Assembly: GCA_020630695.1 (NCBI GenBank)
Contig: JAHDIS010000013.1
Location: forward strand, 1 to 64,000
Reading direction: 5' to 3'
DNA length: 64,000 nt
Origin: Paracoccaceae bacterium
GTDB taxonomy: Bacteria; Pseudomonadota; Alphaproteobacteria; Rhodobacterales; Rhodobacteraceae
Part shown: piece after piece, positions 46,022-62,997 of the stretch
Layout: each line of letters begins with the position of its first letter
Numbering within the stretch: position 1 is the stretch's first letter
Program-made: the position numbers and the translations under genes
Notes under the pieces: generated by a model
The model's input: only the letters and a program-made list of their open reading frames with translations
The model's database searches: none
Told to the model about the DNA's origin: nothing

Positions 46022-48499
<2,478 letters not shown>

Positions 48500-51411: not shown

Positions 51412-52473
51412 TTAGGCGATATGACCGGCCCGGATGTCATAAATGATTGCTCTGTCATGCGTGGTCAGATGGTCTGACAAATCGTGATCCAATCGGATCC
51501 GTTCGTCAGGCGGCGCGAGGTCGTTCATAAAAACGCGCTCGCAGAACCGGGCATTGGGGGCCGCTGCACCGATCACACCCGCCCACATCTTCGAATAGCT
51601 GACATCATCACAGTAGGATCCGAAATCAGACAGGGAAAACGCATCAACCTGATTGATCCTGAGGTCCGCCAGGTCACCCAGCCCGCCCGTCACGATACGA
51701 AGATCAGACAATCGGGTCCGAATACGTTCAAAGTTTTTTGGCTTCAGATGTAGAGGAACCGCGAGGGGCGACACATTGGTTCCTCTCAAAACAAGCGAGG
51801 CAAAATCGCTTTCCCGGAAAAGGAATTGGCCTGCAGCACGCGAAAAACAGCCTGCCAATCGTTGCTCCACTGCCTCAGGACCGGGAAGAAACGCACCGCC
51901 CGGTTCGCCGATGACGCGGGTCCAAAACCATGGGCGTCCGAGGGTGCGGATCGAACTGCGCCACACCCAGTCGTCAAATTGCTGGTCCCAGATTGCCTTT
52001 TGTTCGGCAACGTCACGAGCGTTGAACAGCGCGGGTACAGCTTTGCCGCGCAACATCCGAACACCTTTTGCCCCAATGCGCAGCACCTTTTCCCAAAGAC
52101 CCATGTACCAGATTCCACGGCCAATCTCGCGCAGGTTCTGATCCCAATGTGCCTGCATTTCTGGTCTGAGCGAACGGCGCACCTGCGCATATAGCGCCAT
52201 GCGATCATCGGTTTTCACCAGCCCAAGAAAAGCCAGAAGCGCATCGTAATCCAACGATTGAAACGCCGCTATCTTCAGCTCCAGCAGCGCATTCTGCATT
52301 GGATTGAGATCCAACGCGATGACCTGATTGGCGTCAGACAGCAACATATCCAGTGGCCGTGTTCCGCTACCCGTCAGGCATACCAGTTTTTCAGTGGGTC
52401 CGGACAGTGCGCGTAACTCGCTGCGTCCGTCCTCATTGGATGATGAAAAACTCAGTGACTCAAAAAAATCCAT
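51412..52473 (-). CDS. DUF3419 / BtaA-like SAM-dependent enzyme
   Basis: A 353-residue protein of the DUF3419 family, which includes BtaA, the enzyme that moves the 3-amino-3-carboxypropyl group of SAM to diacylglycerol. A class I SAM-binding site is visible: 'VCLTGSGTRPLD' (residues 31-42) followed by 'VIALDLNP' (D55). ATG 52473 starts 1 nt beyond the upstream stop and follows GAGGC; an ATG 12 codons earlier lies inside the neighbour. It is the last gene of a five-gene leftward operon with acyl-processing enzymes. Either an aminocarboxypropyl transfer or another SAM reaction is possible. It does not sit with a BtaB methyltransferase, so betaine lipid synthesis is not indicated. Confidence 0.75.
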   Translation of the reverse strand: MDFFESLSFSSSNEDGRSELRALSGPTEKLVCLTGSGTRPLDMLLSDANQVIALDLNPMQNALLELKIAAFQSLDYDALLAFLGLVKTDDRMALYAQVRRSLRPEMQAHWDQNLREIGRGIWYMGLWEKVLRIGAKGVRMLRGKAVPALFNARDVAEQKAIWDQQFDDWVWRSSIRTLGRPWFWTRVIGEPGGAFLPGPEAVEQRLAGCFSRAAGQFLFRESDFASLVLRGTNVSPLAVPLHLKPKNFERIRTRLSDLRIVTGGLGDLADLRINQVDAFSLSDFGSYCDDVSYSKMWAGVIGAAAPNARFCERVFMNDLAPPDERIRLDHDLSDHLTTHDRAIIYDIRAGHIA

Positions 52474-52474
52474 A

Positions 52475-53728
52475 TCAATCTGCCTCAGATGACCAGCAAT
52501 TTTCAACACGCCGCAGTTTGCGTGACGGGTTCAGACAAAGGGGTTCGGTCTTGATCTGAATGACCGGGGAAAGCCCCCGATCACCAAACAAATTCGAAAG
52601 AGCGTTTCGGGCCGAAGTTCTGGCTTCTGGGCTGATGTCTGGTCGGAGCACCAGTGAAATCACCCGCTCGCTTTCGCGCCGAATACGGAAATCAGTGATG
52701 TCCCGTGATGCATTCAAAACGGCATTTCGCATCACGTCTGGTGTCACGAGCCGGCCGCCGAATAGAAAGGCGTCGTCCATACGCCCAACAACTTCATCCA
52801 CGACACGCAGAGGTGATCCACAGGAACAAGATTGGTCAGACATGCGCAGCAGATCGTTCATCCTGTAGCGCGCCATGATCTGGAACTGGCGTCGAAACCC
52901 GGTGACCAGCGGTGTGACCAATCCGTCCCCAACAGGCTGTAGTTCAAAGTGGTTGGCGTCCTCTGCCAAGTGCAGATTTCCATGCGCGCAAGTTACGGCA
53001 AAGAGCCCTTCGGTCGCCATGTAGATCTGCCCCAGGCGCACTGAAAACGCTGCTTCGATAATCTTGCGATCCATAGGGTCGAGCGTTTCTGCGCCGGAAT
53101 AGAGTCTTTTTGGGTGCAGTTTTGCATTTTGTTCCGCCAAGTGCCGTAGCACGCGCGGCGGCGCGACAATGGTCGTTGGATCAAACTGCTCAAGACGATC
53201 GAGCCATGTTTCCACTCCGGACCGCAGATCGAAAAAACGCAAGGCCATCCGGCCAGTCTGGTTGGCACCGTCATAGAGGTCAGAGCTTTGTGGCAAGATC
53301 ACCGCGACACGTTCCGCGGCGAATAGAAAGCCCGGTACTGTTTTGGCCAGAATCGTGCCAAGCCAGCGGAATCTCTCGGCCGGCGTGACAGCATAGAGTG
53401 CGCGATTGCCAGAGGTGCCGGTACTCGCGCCAATCGATACTTTGCCGATTTGGCCCGTGTCTTCGAATGCGGCCCATCCCTGAGCAGACGAGATGCGGCC
53501 AAGATTAAAGTCCTCGAATTGCGCCATGACGTTGGATTTGTCGATGATCGGCAAAGAAGACAGACAAGTGGCGCCATTGGCGTAAAAGCCCACCTTTGGC
53601 AAATCATGGGCCAGCCATTTTTTCAGTTTGGCGGCTTGCCATGCCTCGAACGATGCGCGGGACCGTCCCTTTCGCGTCACCCATAGTGTTTCCGCAAAGG
53701 CGCGGGCTGTATGCATGAGTTTGGTCAT
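52475..53728 (-). CDS. adenylate-forming enzyme, F390 synthetase/PaaK-like
   Basis: A 417-residue ANL-type adenylating enzyme of the phenylacetate-CoA ligase/coenzyme F390 synthetase-related group. The phosphate-binding loop 'ASTGTSGNR' (101-109), 'YMATE' (236-240) and 'RYRMND' (287-292) are present. A conserved C-terminal lysine candidate is K404. C301 and C303 lie in a CSCG motif typical of the group. It should activate a carboxylate as an acyl-AMP. Whether the second step is CoA transfer, amide or ester formation, or beta-lactone closure as in OleC, cannot be told. It overlaps the MBL gene by 4 bp. Confidence 0.78.
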   Translation of the reverse strand: MTKLMHTARAFAETLWVTRKGRSRASFEAWQAAKLKKWLAHDLPKVGFYANGATCLSSLPIIDKSNVMAQFEDFNLGRISSAQGWAAFEDTGQIGKVSIGASTGTSGNRALYAVTPAERFRWLGTILAKTVPGFLFAAERVAVILPQSSDLYDGANQTGRMALRFFDLRSGVETWLDRLEQFDPTTIVAPPRVLRHLAEQNAKLHPKRLYSGAETLDPMDRKIIEAAFSVRLGQIYMATEGLFAVTCAHGNLHLAEDANHFELQPVGDGLVTPLVTGFRRQFQIMARYRMNDLLRMSDQSCSCGSPLRVVDEVVGRMDDAFLFGGRLVTPDVMRNAVLNASRDITDFRIRRESERVISLVLRPDISPEARTSARNALSNLFGDRGLSPVIQIKTEPLCLNPSRKLRRVENCWSSEAD

Positions 53729-54546
53729 GCCTGATCCAGCAAATCATAAGGGCTGTCCTCGGGGTCATGACACAGCAGAATGTCTCCACCGGCTTTGGCA
53801 AATCGCGCGACCTTTTCAGCCGATTTCCTCAATGCGGAAGGATCTTCGGCCACGAGACTCGCGGGAAAGCCCGGAATACGGTCTTGAGTAATGGCATTGG
53901 GCACCCACTGCGCATCTACGGCATAGAGCAAAGGCGTCTCTAACAATGGGAAACATACGCCAAAATGGGTGGTGCTGTGTCCCGGCAAAGGAATGGCGAG
54001 GATTGATCCGTCGCCCAGTAAGTCAAACCCGTCACCCAGCCCCAAGGGCGCTTCGGTCACAGGTGTGGACCGCAGATCACTTGTTCGGTCCAACAGATCA
54101 TCGGGCAGCAATTCCGGGAATACGCCGTGCCGCAAGGCTTTGCGCCGGGGTCCGGATTTTGCCTGCTGAAGCGTTGCGAGATCGGTATGTATCCGGGCTT
54201 TTGTAAACCGGGGCAATGCGCACACATGGTCCGCATGTAGATGCGTGACGACAACGTGCTGAACGTCTTCTGGAGATAGGTCCAATAGGGCCAGCACCTT
54301 ATCCGGAGCGCCCTCTGGCAGAAGTTCCGGACCAAGCAGCTTACCGTACAGCCGCAGGGCCAGCCCGCGGTTGGGCGTCGAATACAGTTCCGTGCCATAA
54401 CCAGAGTCGATCAGGATCAAACCCTCGGTGGGATGTTCGACGATGCCGTAACGCACTTTCAAAGGGACTTTGCCCCAACCTCCGCCACGCAGAACCAAAC
54501 GTTCCGGCGTATGCACATAGGCACTGTTTGCAAATTTGGGCTTCAT
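53725..54546 (-). CDS. MBL-fold metallo-hydrolase with HxHxDH site
   Basis: A 273-residue metallo-beta-lactamase-fold enzyme with the full two-metal ligand set: H102, H104, D106, H107 in HLHADH, plus H190 (PGH), D211 and H260 (CHD). This matches ester, lactone or thioester hydrolases such as AHL lactonases. No signal peptide is seen, so it acts in the cytoplasm. Four-bp overlaps with both neighbours make it part of the operon core. In this pathway it could open a lactone or release a thioester, taking the place of the alpha/beta-hydrolase OleB in olefin-type clusters. Confidence 0.82.
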   Translation of the reverse strand: MKPKFANSAYVHTPERLVLRGGGWGKVPLKVRYGIVEHPTEGLILIDSGYGTELYSTPNRGLALRLYGKLLGPELLPEGAPDKVLALLDLSPEDVQHVVVTHLHADHVCALPRFTKARIHTDLATLQQAKSGPRRKALRHGVFPELLPDDLLDRTSDLRSTPVTEAPLGLGDGFDLLGDGSILAIPLPGHSTTHFGVCFPLLETPLLYAVDAQWVPNAITQDRIPGFPASLVAEDPSALRKSAEKVARFAKAGGDILLCHDPEDSPYDLLDQA

Positions 54547-55517
54547 ACCGCGCCTTTCCCTACGGTCTGCGAAAGACCCTGTTCAAATGTGATCTTTGGC
54601 GTCCAACCCAGCACGTCGCGGGCCTTTGACAGGCTCAAACTTTGCTGAAACGCAAAGAGTCCCACCGCATAGGGGGTGATCCGGGGTTCTTTGCTGTTCT
54701 TCGGGATCAGGCTGACGAATTCAGCAGCACGCGCAATGGCCAGCGCTGGCCAGAACGGCAGGGCCCGCCACTTTGGTGCGATGTCATGTGCGCGGCAGGC
54801 GCTTTCCACGATGTTCCGGATCGGGAGCACCTCACCGCTGGAAACATTGTAGATCGGGTCTTGCGGATCAGTTGAACGTTCCAGAGCCAATTCGATCGCC
54901 CTGACTACATCGGACACATGGGTTAAATCGATCGCTGCGGCGCCATCGCGAAACAGTGGCAGCGGACCTCTGCGAGCAGCGGCAATCAGGCGTGGCAGCA
55001 ATGTGGTTTCACCTGCGCCATAGATGCCGCGCGGCCGCAACGTAATTGGGTTCAAATCTGGACGGGCGTGCACCAAAGCCTCGGCTGCTGCCTTTGTGGC
55101 GGCATAGGCATTGAACGGGCGCGGCAGCGGATCAGACTCCAGCACATCCAGTTGATCCCTGAGCGCAAAGGTAACGCTGGGGGATGAGATATTGACGAAC
55201 CTTTGACTGTTTAAGGCGCTTGCCAGCGCCAAAGCCGTTCGTGTGCCCACAACGTTGGCTGCTTCAAATCGCGAACGGCGCCCCCAGGGCGAGGAAAGTG
55301 CCGCGCAATGAACAACCGCATCTACGGGTTCGGGAAGCGTTGAAGGAAGACCACCAGCCAGATCGAATTGTAGGGTTTCGATACCCTTGGATCGAAGCTC
55401 GTTCAGTAGCTTGGGGTCACGCCCGCAGGCGACCACCCCGCAGCCACGCGAATGCAAGTGTAGGGCCAGCTTGCCGCCCAAAAACCCGGTGGCGCCTGTG
55501 ATAAGAATACGGTTCAT
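54543..55517 (-). CDS. NAD(P)-dependent epimerase/3-beta-HSD-like dehydrogenase (OleD-like)
   Basis: A 324-residue extended SDR with GATGFLGG (residues 8-15) and the catalytic Y138-x3-K142. The 3-beta-hydroxysteroid dehydrogenase-like sequence is shared with OleD, which reduces 2-alkyl-3-ketoacids. ATG 55517 lies 1 nt after the KAS III stop. The open frame upstream of it belongs to the KAS gene region. Next to a condensing enzyme the natural guess is reduction of a beta-keto product. A sugar epimerase role is less likely here. Confidence 0.78.
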   Translation of the reverse strand: MNRILITGATGFLGGKLALHLHSRGCGVVACGRDPKLLNELRSKGIETLQFDLAGGLPSTLPEPVDAVVHCAALSSPWGRRSRFEAANVVGTRTALALASALNSQRFVNISSPSVTFALRDQLDVLESDPLPRPFNAYAATKAAAEALVHARPDLNPITLRPRGIYGAGETTLLPRLIAAARRGPLPLFRDGAAAIDLTHVSDVVRAIELALERSTDPQDPIYNVSSGEVLPIRNIVESACRAHDIAPKWRALPFWPALAIARAAEFVSLIPKNSKEPRITPYAVGLFAFQQSLSLSKARDVLGWTPKITFEQGLSQTVGKGAV

Positions 55518-55518
55518 T

Positions 55519-56517
55519 TCAGACCTCGATTGCCATGCCGCCAAACGAGACGCCCGCCGAAGTTCCAAGCAGCAGAACCTTGCTGCCTTTGACAATCCGC
55601 CCTTCGCGCCGTGCGATATCCAGAACCGTTGGAATGGAAGCGGCGATTTGATTGCCCAATCGTTCAGCAACGTTCATGACGCTGCCTTGGCGAAAGCCCA
55701 TTTTGCGCGACATATGGGATAGAGCGTGTGGGCTGGCCTGATGAGGGACCACAACATCAACATCTGATTTGCGCCATCCCGCCTTGTCCAAAAGCGTCTC
55801 TACAAATGCAGGAAAGTGTCGTCGCGTGACTTTGAACAGTGCTTTGCCGTCCATCCGGAACAACGCATTTTCGGCAAACTCTTTAGGATTGCGGTGGTAA
55901 TCGATCCGCGTGCCGCCAGCGCCAATCTGGCAGGCGTCATAGGCAGCAGGGTGCGTTCGTACGAGGCTTGCCCGAATGCCGGCCTCATTGTGAAGGGGCG
56001 CGCTGACAACTGCCGCAGCTGCTCCGTCACCGAAGAGCGCGGCAACGTCTGGCTGCTTCTGCCATGGCAAAGCGCGGGACGCGATTTCCGACGAAATGAC
56101 CAATGCCCGCTTGCTCTGACCAAGTGCGATACGTCCAGCCGCCAGATCAAGCGCTGTGATAAAACTCAGGCAAGTTGCGTTCACGTCAAAGGCTGCGGCC
56201 GCGCCTCCCTTTGCCCCCAATCGCTGCATGATCAATGGCGCTGTCGCAGGTAGAGATTGGTAGGGAATGGCGCTGCCGGAAAGGATCAGATCGATATCGT
56301 CGATCTCAACTCTGGCATCTTCCATGGCTCTTTGCGCAGCCAAGACAGCCAGATCAATCTGGTCTTCGTCCGTGCACAGATGTCGAAAGGCCACACCGGA
56401 TTTCCGGCGCAACCACCCGGTTTTCAGGCCATGCATTTTGTCGAGAGTCTCTGAGTCCAGGCCCTTTTGTGGGAGGGCGTGCCCGGTTCCGGTGATCGAA
56501 ATAGGAAGGTGGTGCAT
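55519..56517 (-). CDS. 3-oxoacyl-ACP synthase III-like condensing enzyme (FabH/OleA type)
   Basis: A 332-residue thiolase-fold condensing enzyme with the full Cys-His-Asn triad: C116 (DVNATCLSF), H259 (VPHQAS) and N289 (LGNQIAAS). FabH usually has GNTSAAS here, so the change of TS to QI and the longer substrate-loop region suggest a secondary-metabolism or OleA-like enzyme. ATG 56517 with TTGGA upstream fits the promoter found just before it; TTG 56547 would start inside the operator. It is the first gene of the operon. Confidence 0.85.
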   Translation of the reverse strand: MHHLPISITGTGHALPQKGLDSETLDKMHGLKTGWLRRKSGVAFRHLCTDEDQIDLAVLAAQRAMEDARVEIDDIDLILSGSAIPYQSLPATAPLIMQRLGAKGGAAAAFDVNATCLSFITALDLAAGRIALGQSKRALVISSEIASRALPWQKQPDVAALFGDGAAAAVVSAPLHNEAGIRASLVRTHPAAYDACQIGAGGTRIDYHRNPKEFAENALFRMDGKALFKVTRRHFPAFVETLLDKAGWRKSDVDVVVPHQASPHALSHMSRKMGFRQGSVMNVAERLGNQIAASIPTVLDIARREGRIVKGSKVLLLGTSAGVSFGGMAIEV

Positions 56518-56533
56518 GGTAATTCCAAAATCG

Positions 56534-56592
56534 TGAACACTGTTCAAAATATGCCAGAAGGTCGTGATGTCAAGGAAATTGAACGACGTTCA
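56534..56592 (-). promoter_or_regulatory. promoter with two flanking operators for the KAS III operon
   Basis: On the minus strand TTGACA (56573-56568) and TATTTT (56551-56546) are 16 bp apart, a near-consensus promoter. The inverted repeat TGAAC-ACT-GTTCA (56534-56546) covers the region from the end of the -10 to the start point. A second copy, TGAAC-GAC-GTTCA within a longer ATTGAAC/GTTCAAT palindrome (56578-56594), lies just upstream of the -35. Two copies of one motif bracketing a promoter indicate repression by a dimeric regulator, for example TetR type. No regulator gene is nearby. Confidence 0.7.
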
Positions 56593-56736
56593 ATGTTGCC
56601 GTCACGTAATTCTTCATACTTCGCTGGAAATCCAAAGAACTTCAATCCAGACAAATTGATGCTACAGGCGCGCCGATTTAACCCCTTGTTGCAGAACGCG
56701 ACCCTGTTGATAGTCGGTCTCAGGAAAAGGAACGGT

Positions 56737-57522
56737 ATGCCTATTTTCAGTTTTCATAGGTCTTTGCGGCTGGTCTTGGTTGCGATGCTTGCTTTGGCGG
56801 TGGGCAGCATCGGTGCGTGTGCGGATCAGATCACCGTTTTTGCCGCTGCAAGCATGAAAAATGCGTTGGACGAAATCGCGAGGACGTTCGAAGACGAAAC
56901 CGGACACACCACCACCCTAGTCTACGCGGGAACAGCTGTTTTGGCCCGCCAAATTGAACAGGGCGCTCCAGCCAATCTGCTGGTTTCGGCCAGTGTTGAA
57001 TGGATGGACTATCTGGAGGGCCAAAACCTGATTGTTCCGGAAAGCAGGGTGGTGGTCACCGGAAACCGGATGGTTTTGATCGCTCCAAAGGATCAGGCCA
57101 AACCTGTCGAGTTCAACGAAAATCTGGATCTTGATGGACTGCTTGTCGGGGGTCTCCTGGCGATGGCTTTGGTTGATGCCGTTCCCGCTGGTATCTACGG
57201 CAAGGCGGCTATGACCCACTATGACCTGTGGGATGAGGTTTCGGATCGTGTGGCACAGGCTGACAACGTCCGGGCCGCGCTGGCATTTGTTGCCTTGGGT
57301 CAGACACCGCTGGGAATTGTGTATGCCAGCGATGCCCATGCAGAACCCCGCGTTGATGTTGTGGCGCGCATTCCATCGCACAGTCATGCCCCCATCCGGT
57401 ATCCTGCGGCTCTGGTCGCTGGACAGTCCGGAAGTGGGGCCAAAGCGTTTTTGGATTTTCTGACCGGTGCCAAGGCATCCGGGGTGTTTGAACAGCACGG
57501 TTTTTCCGTGCCGGGTGGGTAG
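56737..57522 (+). CDS. modA: molybdate ABC transporter substrate-binding protein
   Basis: A periplasmic receptor for molybdate. The mature part begins 'DQITVFAAASMKNALDEIA' (about residue 30 on), the classic ModA opening. It ends in 'FLDFLTGAKASGVFEQHGF'. The 261-residue precursor starts at ATG 56737 with AGGAAAAGG six bases upstream. The signal peptide ends IGAC (C28), which could also be a lipobox, so it may be lipid-anchored. modB follows after 2 bp. The gap from the divergent KAS III operon is 219 bp. Confidence 0.94.
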   Translation: MPIFSFHRSLRLVLVAMLALAVGSIGACADQITVFAAASMKNALDEIARTFEDETGHTTTLVYAGTAVLARQIEQGAPANLLVSASVEWMDYLEGQNLIVPESRVVVTGNRMVLIAPKDQAKPVEFNENLDLDGLLVGGLLAMALVDAVPAGIYGKAAMTHYDLWDEVSDRVAQADNVRAALAFVALGQTPLGIVYASDAHAEPRVDVVARIPSHSHAPIRYPAALVAGQSGSGAKAFLDFLTGAKASGVFEQHGFSVPGG

Positions 57523-57524
57523 GA

Positions 57525-58220
57525 ATGGATTGGCTGGGTCCCGAAGAATGGCAGGCAGTCCGACTGTCGTTGCGCGTTGCGTTCTGGGCAACAGCCTTGT
57601 CATTGCCGTTTGGGCTGCTGACCGCCTATGCACTCGCGCGTTGGCGGTTTCCTGGCCGCCAGCTCGTCAATGGTCTTGTGCATTTGCCGCTTATCCTACC
57701 CCCCGTCGTGACAGGTTATCTGCTGCTTCTGGCTTTTGGCGCGCGGGGACCCATTGGTGAATTGCTTGGCCCGTTGGGTATCAGTTTTGCATTTCGATGG
57801 ACGGGCGCGGCGCTTGCGGCTGCTGTGATGGCGTTCCCGCTGATGGTGCGGGCCATTCGATTGTCGATCGAGGCAGTAGACCCCAAACTTGAAGAGGCAG
57901 CGGCAACCTTGGGTGCGTCACGCCTTTGGGTGTTTTTGACCGTAACTCTGCCGCTGACCTTACCCGGTATTCTGGCGGGCGCGGTCTTGGCCTTTGCCAA
58001 GGCAATGGGTGAATTCGGCGCCACAATTACATTTGTAGCCAATATCCCGGGCCAGACCCAAACCGTGCCCTCGGCAATCTATGCATTTTTGCAGGTCCCC
58101 GGGGGTGAATCATCGGCGGCACGGTTGGTCATTGTATCAATCATCATTGCAATGGCTGCGCTTCTTTTGTCCGAGTGGTTGGCCCGCCGTGTGGCGCAGC
58201 GAGTGGGGGCCAGATCATGA
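57525..58220 (+). CDS. modB: molybdate ABC transporter permease
   Basis: A 231-residue inner-membrane permease with five hydrophobic segments and the ABC-coupling EAA-like motif 'EEAAATLGASRLWVFLTVTLP' (about residues 125-145). 'AKAMGEFGATITFVANIPGQTQT' is a ModB signature (key GEFGATI and GxTQT). Its last 4 bp overlap modC. Confidence 0.96.
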   Translation: MDWLGPEEWQAVRLSLRVAFWATALSLPFGLLTAYALARWRFPGRQLVNGLVHLPLILPPVVTGYLLLLAFGARGPIGELLGPLGISFAFRWTGAALAAAVMAFPLMVRAIRLSIEAVDPKLEEAAATLGASRLWVFLTVTLPLTLPGILAGAVLAFAKAMGEFGATITFVANIPGQTQTVPSAIYAFLQVPGGESSAARLVIVSIIIAMAALLLSEWLARRVAQRVGARS

Positions 58221-59314
58221 CACTGAAGGTCTCGGTTAGTCACGCGTACGATGGATTTTCGGTTCAGGCTAATTTTGAGGCGCCGGACGGTGTCACCGTT
58301 CTGTTCGGACGGTCCGGTTCGGGCAAGACAACGGTCATCAATGCGGTAGCCGGATTGCTCCGGCCGGATTCTGGTTGCATCGAAATTGCGAACAGACGTG
58401 TTCTGGACAGCAAAGCCGGGATATTCGTCCCGCCGCACAAAAGACGGATCGGCTATATCTTTCAGGAAGGTCGTTTGTTTCCTCATCTGACGGTCAAACA
58501 AAACCTGCAGTATGGCCAAAGATTTGTGCCGTCGGGTGTCGTTTGCGAAGATCTGGATCACGTTGTTGACCTGCTCGGGCTAGCCCATCTGCTGGAGCGC
58601 CAGCCAGTCGGATTGTCAGGTGGCGAAAAGCAGCGGGTCGCCATCGGGCGGGCGCTGCTGTCTGGTCCCGAATTGTTGCTGGCGGACGAACCTTTGGCGG
58701 CGTTGGATGAAACCCGGAAATCCGAAATCCTGCCCTACTTTGAGCGGCTCCGTAGTGAATTGTCAGTTCCCATCCTGTACGTCAGCCATTCGGCCGCCGA
58801 AGTGGCGCGGTTGGCGACAACCGTAGTGGTTCTGCAGGATGGCCGAATTGCCCGTCAGGGCAGCGCTGCAGAAGTTCTGAGCGACCCGACAGTCATGCCG
58901 ACCGGTGTGCGCGCTGTCGGCGCCTTGTTGGCCGCAACAGTAAAGGCACATCACGCCGACGGGTTATCAGAGCTTGATGTCGGCGGAGAGACACTATTCC
59001 TGCCGAAAGTCTCGCAGAGTGTTGGGCAGTCTTTGCGTGTACGCGTCCCGGCGCAGGATGTGACATTGGCCCTGACACGCCCCGAAGGCATCTCGGCACT
59101 CAATATTGTGCCAGGCGTTATTTCTCAGATCCGATCGGGCGATGGGCCGGGTGTTATGGTGTCTCTTGAAACCGCTGCTGGCATGGTTCTGGCGCGGGTG
59201 ACGCGCCGATCTGCCGGCCAATTGGGTTTGGTTGAGGGCATGACCTGTCATGCGGTTATAAAAACCGTCGCAATCGCACCTGAAGATGTGGGTGGACCTG
59301 CCGCCGGCGCTTGA
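58217..59314 (+). CDS. modC: molybdate ABC transporter ATP-binding protein
   Basis: A 365-residue ATPase with Walker A 'GRSGSGKTT' (about residues 35-43), signature 'LSGGEKQRV' and Walker B 'LLLADEPL'. The C-terminal Mop/TOBE-like molybdate-binding domain occupies the last about 70 residues, as in full-length ModC. ATG 58217 overlaps the modB stop (ATGA). A short-chain dehydrogenase follows after 32 bp. Confidence 0.95.
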   Translation: MTLKVSVSHAYDGFSVQANFEAPDGVTVLFGRSGSGKTTVINAVAGLLRPDSGCIEIANRRVLDSKAGIFVPPHKRRIGYIFQEGRLFPHLTVKQNLQYGQRFVPSGVVCEDLDHVVDLLGLAHLLERQPVGLSGGEKQRVAIGRALLSGPELLLADEPLAALDETRKSEILPYFERLRSELSVPILYVSHSAAEVARLATTVVVLQDGRIARQGSAAEVLSDPTVMPTGVRAVGALLAATVKAHHADGLSELDVGGETLFLPKVSQSVGQSLRVRVPAQDVTLALTRPEGISALNIVPGVISQIRSGDGPGVMVSLETAAGMVLARVTRRSAGQLGLVEGMTCHAVIKTVAIAPEDVGGPAAGA

Positions 59315-59346
59315 ACTGCGGTGGCAAACCGCTAGCTGACACGGCT

Positions 59347-60012
59347 ATGAAGCAGGCACTCATTATCGGAAACAGTGGCGGGATCGGACGCGCCGTGCAG
59401 GGTGAGCTGCAGGCACGTGGCTACGAGGTGACGGGTTTGTCCCGGCGCGAACACGGCCTTGATGTCACGCAAGAAAGCTCGATCATACGCCATCTGGATG
59501 GGCTGACAGGGCCTTTTGATCTGGTGTTTGTGGCGTCGGGTGCTTTGGAAATCGCAGGCGCCGCGCCGGAAAAAACGCTGCAAAGCCTGACGCCGTCTGC
59601 CTTGATTGACCAGTTCGCACTGAATGCCATGGGGCCGGCCTTGGTGCTGAAACACGTCGTGCCCTTGTTGCCCAAGTCCCGCCCTGCGGTATTTGCTGCA
59701 CTTTCCGCTCGGGTCGGTAGCATTGGCGACAATCGACTGGGCGGCTGGTACAGTTACCGCACCTCTAAAACCGCGTTGAACCAGTTGATGCATGGCGCGG
59801 CGGTTGAGTTGGCACGCACCCACAAGCAGCTGTGCCTTGTCTGCCTGCATCCGGGAACCGTGGCGACATCATTCACCGAAAAATACCTTGGACGGCATCC
59901 TGCCGTCGGACCGGGCGAAGCGGCCCGCAATCTTGTGGATGTCATGGAGCAACTGTCCCCGGATCAGACCGGGCGGTTTTTCGACTACGCTGGGCAGGAG
60001 ATTCCTTGGTGA
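59347..60012 (+). CDS. short-chain dehydrogenase (CsgA/YciK-like SDR)
   Basis: A 221-residue classical SDR with 'IIGNSGGIGRA' (GxxxGIG, about residues 7-17) and the catalytic 'YRTSK' (Tyr-x3-Lys, about residue 139). The protein resembles small cytoplasmic SDRs of the CsgA group whose substrates are mostly unknown. It overlaps the photolyase start by 4 bp (GTGA) and probably forms a unit with it; such pairs occur in related genomes. The ATG has only a weak ribosome site. Confidence 0.82.
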   Translation: MKQALIIGNSGGIGRAVQGELQARGYEVTGLSRREHGLDVTQESSIIRHLDGLTGPFDLVFVASGALEIAGAAPEKTLQSLTPSALIDQFALNAMGPALVLKHVVPLLPKSRPAVFAALSARVGSIGDNRLGGWYSYRTSKTALNQLMHGAAVELARTHKQLCLVCLHPGTVATSFTEKYLGRHPAVGPGEAARNLVDVMEQLSPDQTGRFFDYAGQEIPW

Positions 60013-61532
60013 CACGACTGATCCTGATCCTTGGCGATCAACTGACACCAGACATCTCGGCCCTGCGCAGTGCTGACAAAAGTCAAGATATCGTCGTGAT
60101 GGCCGAAGTGGCGGCTGAAGCAACATATGTGGGGCATCACCCAAAGAAAATCGCCCTGATCTTTGCCGCCATGCGCAAATTCGCGGCCCGACTGAGGATG
60201 GACGGTTGGGATGTACGCTATTCCGAGTTGGACGATACACACAACGCTGGATCAATCGTCGGTGAATTGCTTCGTCATACAGAGGATACAAGCGCCAAAA
60301 GTGTCGTTGCGACCAAACCGGGTGAGTGGCGTTTGATTCAGGCGCTGGAAGAAGCGCCTCTTGGAATCACTCTCTTGGAAGACGACCGGTTCATCGCATC
60401 CCACGCGGATTTCGAGACATGGGCCCAAGGCCGCAAGGCGCTGCGCATGGAGTATTTCTATCGTGACATGCGCCGAAAGACTGGCCTTCTGATGAACGAA
60501 GCCGAGCCGGAAGGCGGTCAGTGGAACTACGATCACGACAATCGCAAACCAGCACCAAACAGTGTCGATGCAGCCCCGATGCAATTCGTACCCGATGCAA
60601 CCGTCGAGGCAGTTCTTGAATTGGTCGAGGCTCGGTTTTCAAACAGCTTCGGGACGCTTCGACCGTTTCACTTTGCCACCGACCAGGCCGAGGCCGAACA
60701 GGCTCTTGAGCACTTTGTTGAGAATGGTCTGGCGAAGTTTGGCGACTATCAAGATGCCATGTTGGACAGCAATCGGTTTTTGTACCACTCGCTGTTGTCC
60801 GCATACATGAACATTGGCTTGCTTGATCCGCTAAGGGTTTGTCGCGCCGCCGAAGCCGCCTATCGCGCGGGTCGGGTGCCGCTGAATGCCGCCGAAGGGT
60901 TTATCCGGCAGATTATCGGTTGGCGGGAATACGTGCGCGGGATCTATTTTCACGAAGGGCCGGATTATCCGCAAAGGAACGGATTGAATCACCAACGCGA
61001 CCTGCCTGACTTCTATTGGGGCCGCCAAACCAAGATGCGGTGCATTTCAAAGGCAGTCGAACAGACCCGCGAAGAAGCCTATGCGCATCATATCCAACGC
61101 CTCATGGTCACTGGCAACTTTGGCCTATTGGCCGGGATCAACCCGACCGAACTGCATGAGTGGTATCTGTCGGTCTATATCGACGCCTTTGAGTGGGTCG
61201 AGGCACCGAATACCGTTGGAATGAGCCAGTTCGCCGACGGTGGGGTTATCGCGTCCAAACCTTATGTTTCTTCGGGCAACTACATCAACAAGATGTCGGA
61301 CCACTGCAAACATTGTGAGTACAAGGTCAAAGACAAGACAGGTCCAGATGCCTGCCCATTCAATCTGTTGTATTGGCACTTCATGGAGCGACACCGCAAC
61401 CGGTTCCAGAGCAATCCGCGCATGGCGCAGATGTACCGGACATGGGACAGGATGGACGCGGACAAACGCGAAACGGTGCTAAGCGAGGCCGAGACATGGC
61501 TGGACCGTATGACCAAGGGCGATCTGGTTTAG
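60009..61532 (+). CDS. iron-sulfur bacterial cryptochrome/photolyase (PhrB type), GTG start
   Basis: A 507-residue member of the FeS-BCP group of the photolyase/cryptochrome family, which repairs (6-4) photoproducts or senses light. Four cysteines for the [4Fe-4S] cluster occur at C345, C433, C436 and C449. This is exactly the spacing of Agrobacterium PhrB (350, 438, 441, 454) shifted by five. The N-terminal Rossmann-like antenna domain begins 'TRLILILGDQL', and the FAD-binding helical domain follows. GTG 60009 overlaps the SDR stop and has GGAG eight bases before. The bound antenna is likely a lumazine. Confidence 0.9.
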   Translation: MTRLILILGDQLTPDISALRSADKSQDIVVMAEVAAEATYVGHHPKKIALIFAAMRKFAARLRMDGWDVRYSELDDTHNAGSIVGELLRHTEDTSAKSVVATKPGEWRLIQALEEAPLGITLLEDDRFIASHADFETWAQGRKALRMEYFYRDMRRKTGLLMNEAEPEGGQWNYDHDNRKPAPNSVDAAPMQFVPDATVEAVLELVEARFSNSFGTLRPFHFATDQAEAEQALEHFVENGLAKFGDYQDAMLDSNRFLYHSLLSAYMNIGLLDPLRVCRAAEAAYRAGRVPLNAAEGFIRQIIGWREYVRGIYFHEGPDYPQRNGLNHQRDLPDFYWGRQTKMRCISKAVEQTREEAYAHHIQRLMVTGNFGLLAGINPTELHEWYLSVYIDAFEWVEAPNTVGMSQFADGGVIASKPYVSSGNYINKMSDHCKHCEYKVKDKTGPDACPFNLLYWHFMERHRNRFQSNPRMAQMYRTWDRMDADKRETVLSEAETWLDRMTKGDLV

Positions 61533-61563
61533 ACTGCAATCATGCAGCGGCTGTCCTACTGGC

Positions 61564-62997
61564 CTATTGGTCCTGTGTCGCGTCTTGCGCTGGCACAACG
61601 GCCGCCTGACCGGTTAGCGCCCCGTTGATCCACTCACCGCTGGCTTGTTCTCCGGTGGAGTAGCGCATCGTGCCGGTGCCCTGCCGCTTGCCATCCACAA
61701 AGGTGCCTTCGTAGACATCCCCATTGGCATATGTCGCAACGCCCTGACCGCTGATTTCACCGCGCTGCCATTCGCCGGTGTATTTGAACCCATTGGCCAT
61801 CGCGATCTGGCCCTGACCGTGACGCTGGCCTTCGCGGAACTGGCCCGCATAAACCGTACCGTCCGGGTAAGTTGCCGTGCCTTTGCCGTGTCTTTGGCCG
61901 TCTTTCCATTCGCCTTCGTATTTGTAGCCGTCGGGGTAGGTCATCACACCGTACCCTTCATTCCGTGCGTTCTTGAAAGCGCCTTCGTACACCAACCCAT
62001 TTGCGTAGGTTGCGACACCCTGGCCTTCGATCACTCCGTCGACCCAGTCACCTTCAAAGGTTGAGCCGCCGGGATAGGTGATCTTGCCTTTGCCATTGGC
62101 CAGGTCCCCGCGGAACTGACCCGCATAGACAGAGCCATCCGGATAGGTGACGCTGCCTTCGCCTTCGATCTGGCCTGCGATCCAGTTTCCAGCATACTTG
62201 TAGCCGTCGGCGCCAACAAAGGTGCCTTGCCCGTGACGTTGATCGTTGTTGAACGCGCCCTCATAGGTGTCGCCATTGGCGTAAACGACTTTTCCCTGAC
62301 CTTCGCGACGCCCATCCACCAGTTCTCCTTCGTAGATGTCGCCGTTGGCCTGAGTCAGTTTGCCGGCTCCGTCGATTTGTCCGTCCCGCCACGTGCCTTC
62401 GTAGATCAACCCGTCCGGCATCGTCAGCTTGCCGTTGCCTTCGCGGTCACCGTCGGCGACCCGGCCTTCGTACACGGATCCGTCCGGATAAGAGATCTTG
62501 GCCTCGCCTTCCTTGATGCCATTGACCCACTGACCATCGTACAGATAGCCATTGGGAGAGGTCATCACACCCTTGCCGTGATGCAGCGCGTTGCGGAAAG
62601 ACCCTTCGTAGCGAACGCCGTTGGCATAAATCGCAACACCCTGACCGGTGATTTTGCCGTCCAGCCATGTGCCTTCATAGGTGCCGCCATCGGCAAAGAC
62701 TATTTTGCCAACGCCCTCTGGCTTGCCCTTTACGAACTGGCCTTCGTAGACGGAACCATTTGGAAACCGTGCTACGCCCTGGCCTTTGATTTCACCATCG
62801 GCCCATTCCCCGGTATATTCATACCCGTTGGGCAGGCGATAGGTGCCGGTCCCATGTTGGAGACCGTTCAGGAATTCACCCTCGTAGAAGCCACCATCAT
62901 CATATTGCTTGGTCCCGACTTCGCCGTCTTGGGCGACTGCCGTTTGTGCCAATGCCATGGTGCCAAGAATTAGAAGTGCACGACCTGCGAGTTTCAT
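61564..62997 (-). CDS. exported MORN-repeat protein
   Basis: A 477-residue protein made of a signal peptide (about residues 1-23, ending AVAQ), a short acidic lead and then 18 intact MORN repeats plus a degenerate 19th, each exactly 23 residues long. Each unit has a Y-x-G-x-(W/F) opening, a central x-G-x-G and an xNG/DG end. Units alternate between a W type and an F type, with one break in phase around units 9-10. The C-terminus is short and Ala-rich. MORN repeats in eukaryotes bind lipids or build scaffolds. In bacteria the role is unknown; here it should be periplasmic or surface-exposed. Confidence 0.93.
   Translation of the reverse strand: MKLAGRALLILGTMALAQTAVAQDGEVGTKQYDDGGFYEGEFLNGLQHGTGTYRLPNGYEYTGEWADGEIKGQGVARFPNGSVYEGQFVKGKPEGVGKIVFADGGTYEGTWLDGKITGQGVAIYANGVRYEGSFRNALHHGKGVMTSPNGYLYDGQWVNGIKEGEAKISYPDGSVYEGRVADGDREGNGKLTMPDGLIYEGTWRDGQIDGAGKLTQANGDIYEGELVDGRREGQGKVVYANGDTYEGAFNNDQRHGQGTFVGADGYKYAGNWIAGQIEGEGSVTYPDGSVYAGQFRGDLANGKGKITYPGGSTFEGDWVDGVIEGQGVATYANGLVYEGAFKNARNEGYGVMTYPDGYKYEGEWKDGQRHGKGTATYPDGTVYAGQFREGQRHGQGQIAMANGFKYTGEWQRGEISGQGVATYANGDVYEGTFVDGKRQGTGTMRYSTGEQASGEWINGALTGQAAVVPAQDATQDQ

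Follow-up and report, generated by a model that had tools for sequence, protein, structure and literature searches.

A minus-strand operon of five genes (51412-56517) in a Paracoccaceae bacterium combines a four-gene core that recurs across bacterial phyla with a DUF3419 gene, which is one of several interchangeable partners of that core. The operon lies in a 64,000-nucleotide stretch of DNA, hereafter the window (assembly GCA_020630695.1, contig JAHDIS010000013.1, positions 1 to 64,000). The core encodes a ketoacyl-acyl carrier protein synthase III (KAS III)-type condensing enzyme, an extended short-chain dehydrogenase/reductase (SDR), a metallo-beta-lactamase-fold (MBL) hydrolase, and an adenylate-forming enzyme (COF). 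We consider the chances about even that the core builds a hydroxylated acyl scaffold, that the partner genes install or modify its polar group, and that the DUF3419 protein of the window adds a 3-amino-3-carboxypropyl group from S-adenosylmethionine (SAM). A preliminary description of the operon, which read it as an undescribed acyl pathway with counterparts of OleA, OleC, and OleD, is partly supported as a whole.

Organization and spread of the four-gene core

The genes are tightly packed, and their coordinates confirm the 1-nt gaps and 4-nt overlaps described previously. The KAS III gene comes first (55519..56517, minus strand; 332 aa; PRK07204-like; Pfam ACP_syn_III and ACP_syn_III_C) and is separated by a 1-nt gap from the gene for the SDR, a member of the OleD-like 2-alkyl-3-oxoacid reductase superfamily (54543..55517, minus strand; 324 aa; Pfam Epimerase). 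Overlaps of 4 nt join the SDR gene to that of the lactonase-like MBL hydrolase (53725..54546, minus strand; 273 aa; Pfam Lactamase_B), and the latter to the gene for the adenylate-forming enzyme of the TIGR02304 'F390 synthetase-related' type (52475..53728, minus strand; 417 aa; NCBIfam TIGR02304). The DUF3419 (BtaA-like) gene (51412..52473, minus strand; 353 aa) follows after a 1-nt gap, its ATG at 52473 lying one base past the preceding stop codon. This start (MDFF) replaces the longer GTG start of the open reading frame (ORF) list, which gives a 35-nt overlap, because close homologues start at residues aligned with MDFF.

Loci were collected through the adenylating gene in plasmids and whole genomes and their surroundings were read, yielding 41 loci including the window; a contig scan with one protein gave two relatives only, and the wide sample stems from the whole-genome and plasmid searches. 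Every locus was reached by way of the adenylating gene, on whose presence the co-occurrence is therefore conditional; moreover, related loci do not count as independent observations. The complete core is found at 37 of the 41 loci, and in 32 of them its genes are contiguous as KAS-SDR-MBL-COF. The four incomplete loci include one at a contig edge (L022), one with the KAS annotated at the edge of the stretch (L030), and two with distant COF relatives (L075 and L078). The core occurs in Alpha-, Beta-, and Gammaproteobacteria, Bacilli, and Fusobacteria, with hosts among Rhodobacterales (where the adenylating gene turned up in 15 of the 395 genera sampled), Rhizobiales, Burkholderia, Escherichia coli and apparent same-family genomes, Paenibacillus, Pontibacillus, and Fusobacterium. 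All five genes, DUF3419 included, were found in at least six genomes besides that of the window. Since the four-gene order recurs across phyla and the five-gene set recurs in these further genomes, the grouping is not due to chance, and chance neighbourhood was rejected as an explanation. The core is one pathway unit of wide distribution.

In E. coli, the module is present in 672 of 5,426 complete genomes (~12%) and is chromosomal in nearly all cases. It forms an operon of seven genes (KAS-SDR-MBL-F390-PAP2-fatty acid hydroxylase-desaturase) between narI and tyrT/purU, as in E. coli UPEC 26-1 (L088:3001-9882). The TIGR02304 loci, this narI-purU island among them, agree with the window in the identity and order of the four core genes, whereas the partners in the island are PAP2, fatty-acid hydroxylase, and desaturase genes rather than DUF3419. 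A search of open-licence papers returned no description of the four-gene set or of the E. coli operon, in agreement with the earlier impression of an undescribed pathway.

Exchangeable partner genes

The partners that accompany the core differ between loci. The most frequent encode ATP-grasp (15 loci), GNAT-like (14 loci), and Rieske (13 loci) proteins, while a set comprising PAP2, an OlsE-like fatty-acid hydroxylase, and a desaturase occurs in 5 loci, E. coli among them; the PAP2 partner is weakly similar to phosphoinositol dihydroceramide synthase. Glycosyltransferases of HpnI-like GT21 and UGT-like types are partners in L031, L069, L070, and L072, and a sulfotransferase is a partner in 4 loci. 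The sulfotransferase gene is divergent beside the core in L026, L033, and L071; the first two of these loci have an annotated TetR-type regulator between it and the core.

ATP-grasp was found in none of the 7 core loci with DUF3419 vs 15 of the 30 without it (Fisher p=0.03, a value that ignores phylogeny), and GNAT and Rieske partners are common to both DUF3419 and ATP-grasp loci. Because the two genes are never found together and yet keep the same GNAT and Rieske company, they may perform equivalent jobs, as alternative routes to an amino-acid-like group on the same scaffold. The company that the core keeps at other loci is the strongest hint of a theme of lipids and polar groups.

Enzymes of the core

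The active sites of the core enzymes are intact, as first described. The Cys-His-Asn triad is present in 37/37 core KAS homologues, the Ser-Tyr-Lys of the SDR in 38/38, and the HxHxDH motif of the MBL hydrolase with the downstream His and Asp metal ligands in 38/38; the adenylation motifs are near-invariant, and the catalytic Lys is conserved among homologues of the adenylating enzyme.

The best NCBIfam match of the KAS III is PRK07204 (301 bits, under the cut-off of 402). Its closest solved structures are MxnB and CorB, which outrank every FabH (phmmer: 4v2p, 2.4e-51; 4yuc, 5.2e-51). The Glu of the OleA Glu-Pro signature is required for Claisen condensation, and only two of the aligned OleA proteins lack it (PMC7064751); it is found in three OleA references and is replaced by Leu/Ile-Pro in 37/37 core KAS. 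MxnB and CorB carry Val at this position, whereas OleA and PpyS have the glutamate (PMC4578411). The window KAS thus shares the sequence traits of MxnB and CorB: it has them as nearest relatives, carries the Cys-His-Asn triad, and lacks the catalytic Glu. Phylogenetically, the 37 core KAS form a single clade (94/92) that is separate from FabH and well removed from OleA, which splits off at 100/100. The window's own genome encodes a separate FabH (428 bits), as do 9 of 10 core genomes checked (above the curated cut-off), and together with the distinct FabH clade this led us to reject a housekeeping FabH identity. Given its own clade, the separate FabH, and the absence of the OleA Glu, the sequence comparisons indicate that the KAS is neither OleA nor housekeeping FabH, and its proposed role as an OleA counterpart is not upheld.

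OleD is the best NCBIfam match of the SDR (166 bits vs a cut-off of 580), followed by dTDP-glucose dehydratase (73 bits). In the SDR tree, OleD forms a separate 100/100 clade that contains no core SDR. By family score and tree position, the SDR is a relative of OleD outside the OleD clade and is not a sugar epimerase; 'OleD-like', similar to 'BtaA-like' for the DUF3419 protein, holds as a superfamily description, and the stronger claim of an OleD counterpart does not. An OleD-sister SDR clade also occurs in some proteobacteria, with no KAS found nearby (L142 and L144).

The nearest solved relatives of the MBL hydrolase are the N-acyl-homoserine lactone (AHL) lactonase AhlX and 4-pyridoxolactonase (phmmer and Foldseek). 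Its NCBIfam scores are far under the cut-offs for both AttM (65.6 of 390 bits) and 4-pyridoxolactonase (39 bits), and the AttM score led us to reject the identity of an AHL lactonase. The adenylating enzyme scores 241.9 bits against TIGR02304 (cut-off 251.9) and shares its operon context with members that exceed the cut-off. PaaK-type structures are its only clear solved relatives. Set against OleC by family scores only, this adenylate-forming enzyme has TIGR02304 and PaaK-like as its best families, which identifies it at the family level as a PaaK/F390-synthetase relative and leaves the presumed OleC counterpart unsupported.

The DUF3419 protein

The DUF3419 protein matches its Pfam family at 1.7e-47 (163 bits, cut-off 28) and shares SAM-binding core motifs with BtaA, an established 3-amino-3-carboxypropyl transferase (PMC10491745). 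The DUF3419 tree contains three well-separated clades, namely canonical BtaA, a second type, and the core type, the last being separate at 100/99 on a long branch. The core-type subclade comprises 8 sequences (window, L021 of Nitratireductor pacificus, L022, L025, L034, L064, L068, and L074) found solely beside the core module. Some DUF3419 protein is encoded in 49 of 370 Rhodobacteraceae genomes searched; in this set, just three proteins exceed 50% identity to that of the window, and these three, like the window protein itself, adjoin the core, while the remaining DUF3419 proteins are at most 30% identical. Four plasmid matches at ~50% identity (Shinella and Rhizobium) likewise all adjoin the core. 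This constant association makes the protein part of the module. The earlier suggestion of a BtaA-like SAM enzyme as a tailoring step is supported, and the protein is probably a SAM-dependent 3-amino-3-carboxypropyl transferase.

Unlike BtaA, which acts in the synthesis of the betaine lipid diacylglyceryl-trimethylhomoserine (DGTS), the window protein belongs to another clade, is just 22-25% identical to the BtaA sequences compared, and is encoded inside an acyl-building operon. Canonical BtaA genes in L130 and L131 are followed by a methyltransferase-sized gene, confirmed as a methyltransferase for L130, whereas no BtaB-type methyltransferase gene was found in the window operon or downstream of DUF3419. 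Canonical BtaA identity was rejected on the basis of the separate clade and the missing BtaB partner. The two AlphaFold models, built from 3 and 2 sequences (mean predicted local distance difference test scores of 58 and 61), served for broad fold class only; that of DUF3419 (mean 58) has a class I SAM-enzyme-like fold with low confidence outside the nucleotide-binding core. Its top structural match is the uncharacterised Leptospira protein 6ulo (Z 12.3, root-mean-square deviation 3.7 over 200 residues). A search with a profile built from 14 DUF3419 proteins gave no relative of solved structure, the only match being 5bp9 at E=0.044.

The second-type DUF3419 of Rhodobacteraceae (L132-L136 and L148; e.g. 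L133:112-9020) resides in a separate operon, whose families were read in L133 only: DUF3419, HMG-CoA reductase, UbiA prenyltransferase, a pyruvate phosphate dikinase/phosphoenolpyruvate-utilizer, two genes with no Pfam match, and an AMP-binding enzyme. This operon, too, has the look of an undescribed pathway.

Proposed pathway and alternatives

In the proposed pathway, the KAS III would join or extend acyl thioesters to a beta-ketoacyl chain, the MBL hydrolase would free the chain from its thioester or open a lactone, the OleD-like SDR would reduce the keto group to a hydroxyl, and the TIGR02304 enzyme would adenylate the carboxyl so released to prepare it for attachment or for closing a ring. 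These steps, in whatever order they may run, would yield a hydroxylated, lipid-like acyl scaffold, whose polar group would then be set or altered by lineage-specific partner genes. In the window bacterium and its seven relatives, DUF3419 would use SAM as the donor of a 3-amino-3-carboxypropyl group; the resulting head group would be zwitterionic and of the homoserine type, and would lack the N-methylation of betaine lipids. Several points weigh against this proposal. The substrates and products of all core genes are predictions from sequence; the mutual exclusion of DUF3419 and ATP-grasp is based on few, related loci; some partners (Rieske and ATP-grasp) would also fit a soluble secreted metabolite; several loci (L062 and L082) have no obvious partner; and, because of its low identity to BtaA, the DUF3419 protein may transfer a different group or may be a methyltransferase.

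In a first alternative, two acyl chains would be joined head to head by the KAS, as by MxnB and CorB, and the product would be a secreted metabolite or signal of the lactone type, such as an alpha-pyrone or butenolide, whose ring the MBL hydrolase would open or proof-read. The best sequence matches of the KAS, its lack of the OleA/PpyS glutamate (PMC4578411), and the proximity of the MBL hydrolase to lactonases all agree with this idea, but since the identity to MxnB and CorB is moderate and both enzymes themselves belong to the FabH clade (PMC4578411), the match may stem from common descent and not from a shared reaction. The myxopyronin and corallopyronin systems, whose ketosynthases connect two carrier-bound beta-ketoacyl chains, also differ in that the operon here has no polyketide synthase or dedicated carrier protein and instead has a reductase, a hydrolase, and an adenylating enzyme after the KAS. 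An OleD-like reductase and an adenylating enzyme are not needed for a pyrone, and the partner genes resemble lipid and polar-group enzymes, which leaves this alternative unlikely. Less probable still is an Ole-type pathway, in which the condensation of two acyl-CoAs would be followed by reduction and by ring closure to a beta-lactone through the adenylating enzyme, with the MBL hydrolase replacing OleB or opening the lactone and DUF3419 decorating the product. Both systems place a thiolase-fold condensing enzyme, an OleD-like SDR (OleD being its best family match), and an adenylate-forming enzyme in one operon, encoding the same reaction classes, and oleACD clusters that lack oleB are known to make beta-lactones (PMC7064751). 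However, the KAS clade is distant from OleA and lacks a Glu found in nearly all OleA proteins (PMC7064751), the SDR falls outside the OleD clade, the adenylating enzyme is of the PaaK/F390 type, and the module has its own MBL hydrolase and exchangeable partners. OleB, an alpha/beta-hydrolase of the olefin branch only, has no such gene in the operon. OleABCD membership was rejected on the missing OleA Glu, the KAS position, the SDR score, and the absence of OleB. Because the MBL hydrolase belongs to the module even at loci without DUF3419, the replacement of OleB put forward in the preliminary description is only one guess. The pathway idea itself survives, as the families co-occur, the KAS is not FabH, and the SDR does not score as a sugar epimerase, whereas the Ole identity fails.

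Two further alternatives were considered. A variant betaine-lipid pathway, in which diacylglycerol would be the substrate of DUF3419, as it is of BtaA, while the other genes supply unusual acyl chains, is in line with the shared Pfam family and with the BtaA and BtaB-like pairs in related genomes. It is improbable in view of the missing BtaB-type gene and the separate clade on its long branch; moreover, most core loci have no DUF3419, so the core is not a betaine-lipid helper. The possibility that the MBL hydrolase is an AHL lactonase and that the operon makes or breaks homoserine-lactone-like quorum signals draws on AHL lactonases as the nearest curated families and structures of the hydrolase, but the scores far below the curated cut-offs and the conservation of the hydrolase in core loci that lack DUF3419, including those of Firmicutes and Fusobacterium, make it highly improbable.

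Genomic surroundings

The operon is flanked by a divergent ModA-type binding protein gene and a convergent enolase-superfamily gene, as read from the ORF list only. By eye and from the same list, neighbouring genes in the regions 46025-48499 and 56467-62997 of the window read as gyrB, genes for a ModABC-like transporter and an SDR, a photolyase-related gene, and a MORN-repeat protein gene.

Biological implications

The core may, though we put this forward tentatively and as less likely than the reverse, define a so far overlooked class of acyl-derived, non-glycerol lipids in bacteria, with gene exchange swapping the polar group from lineage to lineage. If so, aminocarboxypropyl, sugar, sulfate, and amino acid groups would be exchanged on a lipid class present in marine and rhizosphere Alphaproteobacteria, in the E. 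coli genomes that carry the module, in Firmicutes, and in Fusobacterium. The enzymes are each of a known kind, while the module they form has no description found in the literature searched; compact and spread across phyla, it is carried by hundreds of genomes of E. coli, a species in which existing tools would allow it to be tested directly. The identity of the product would give a role to TIGR02304, a named family with no function, would broaden the chemistry of DUF3419 proteins past betaine lipids, and might uncover a membrane lipid or metabolite that is new and common to gut, marine, and plant-associated bacteria.

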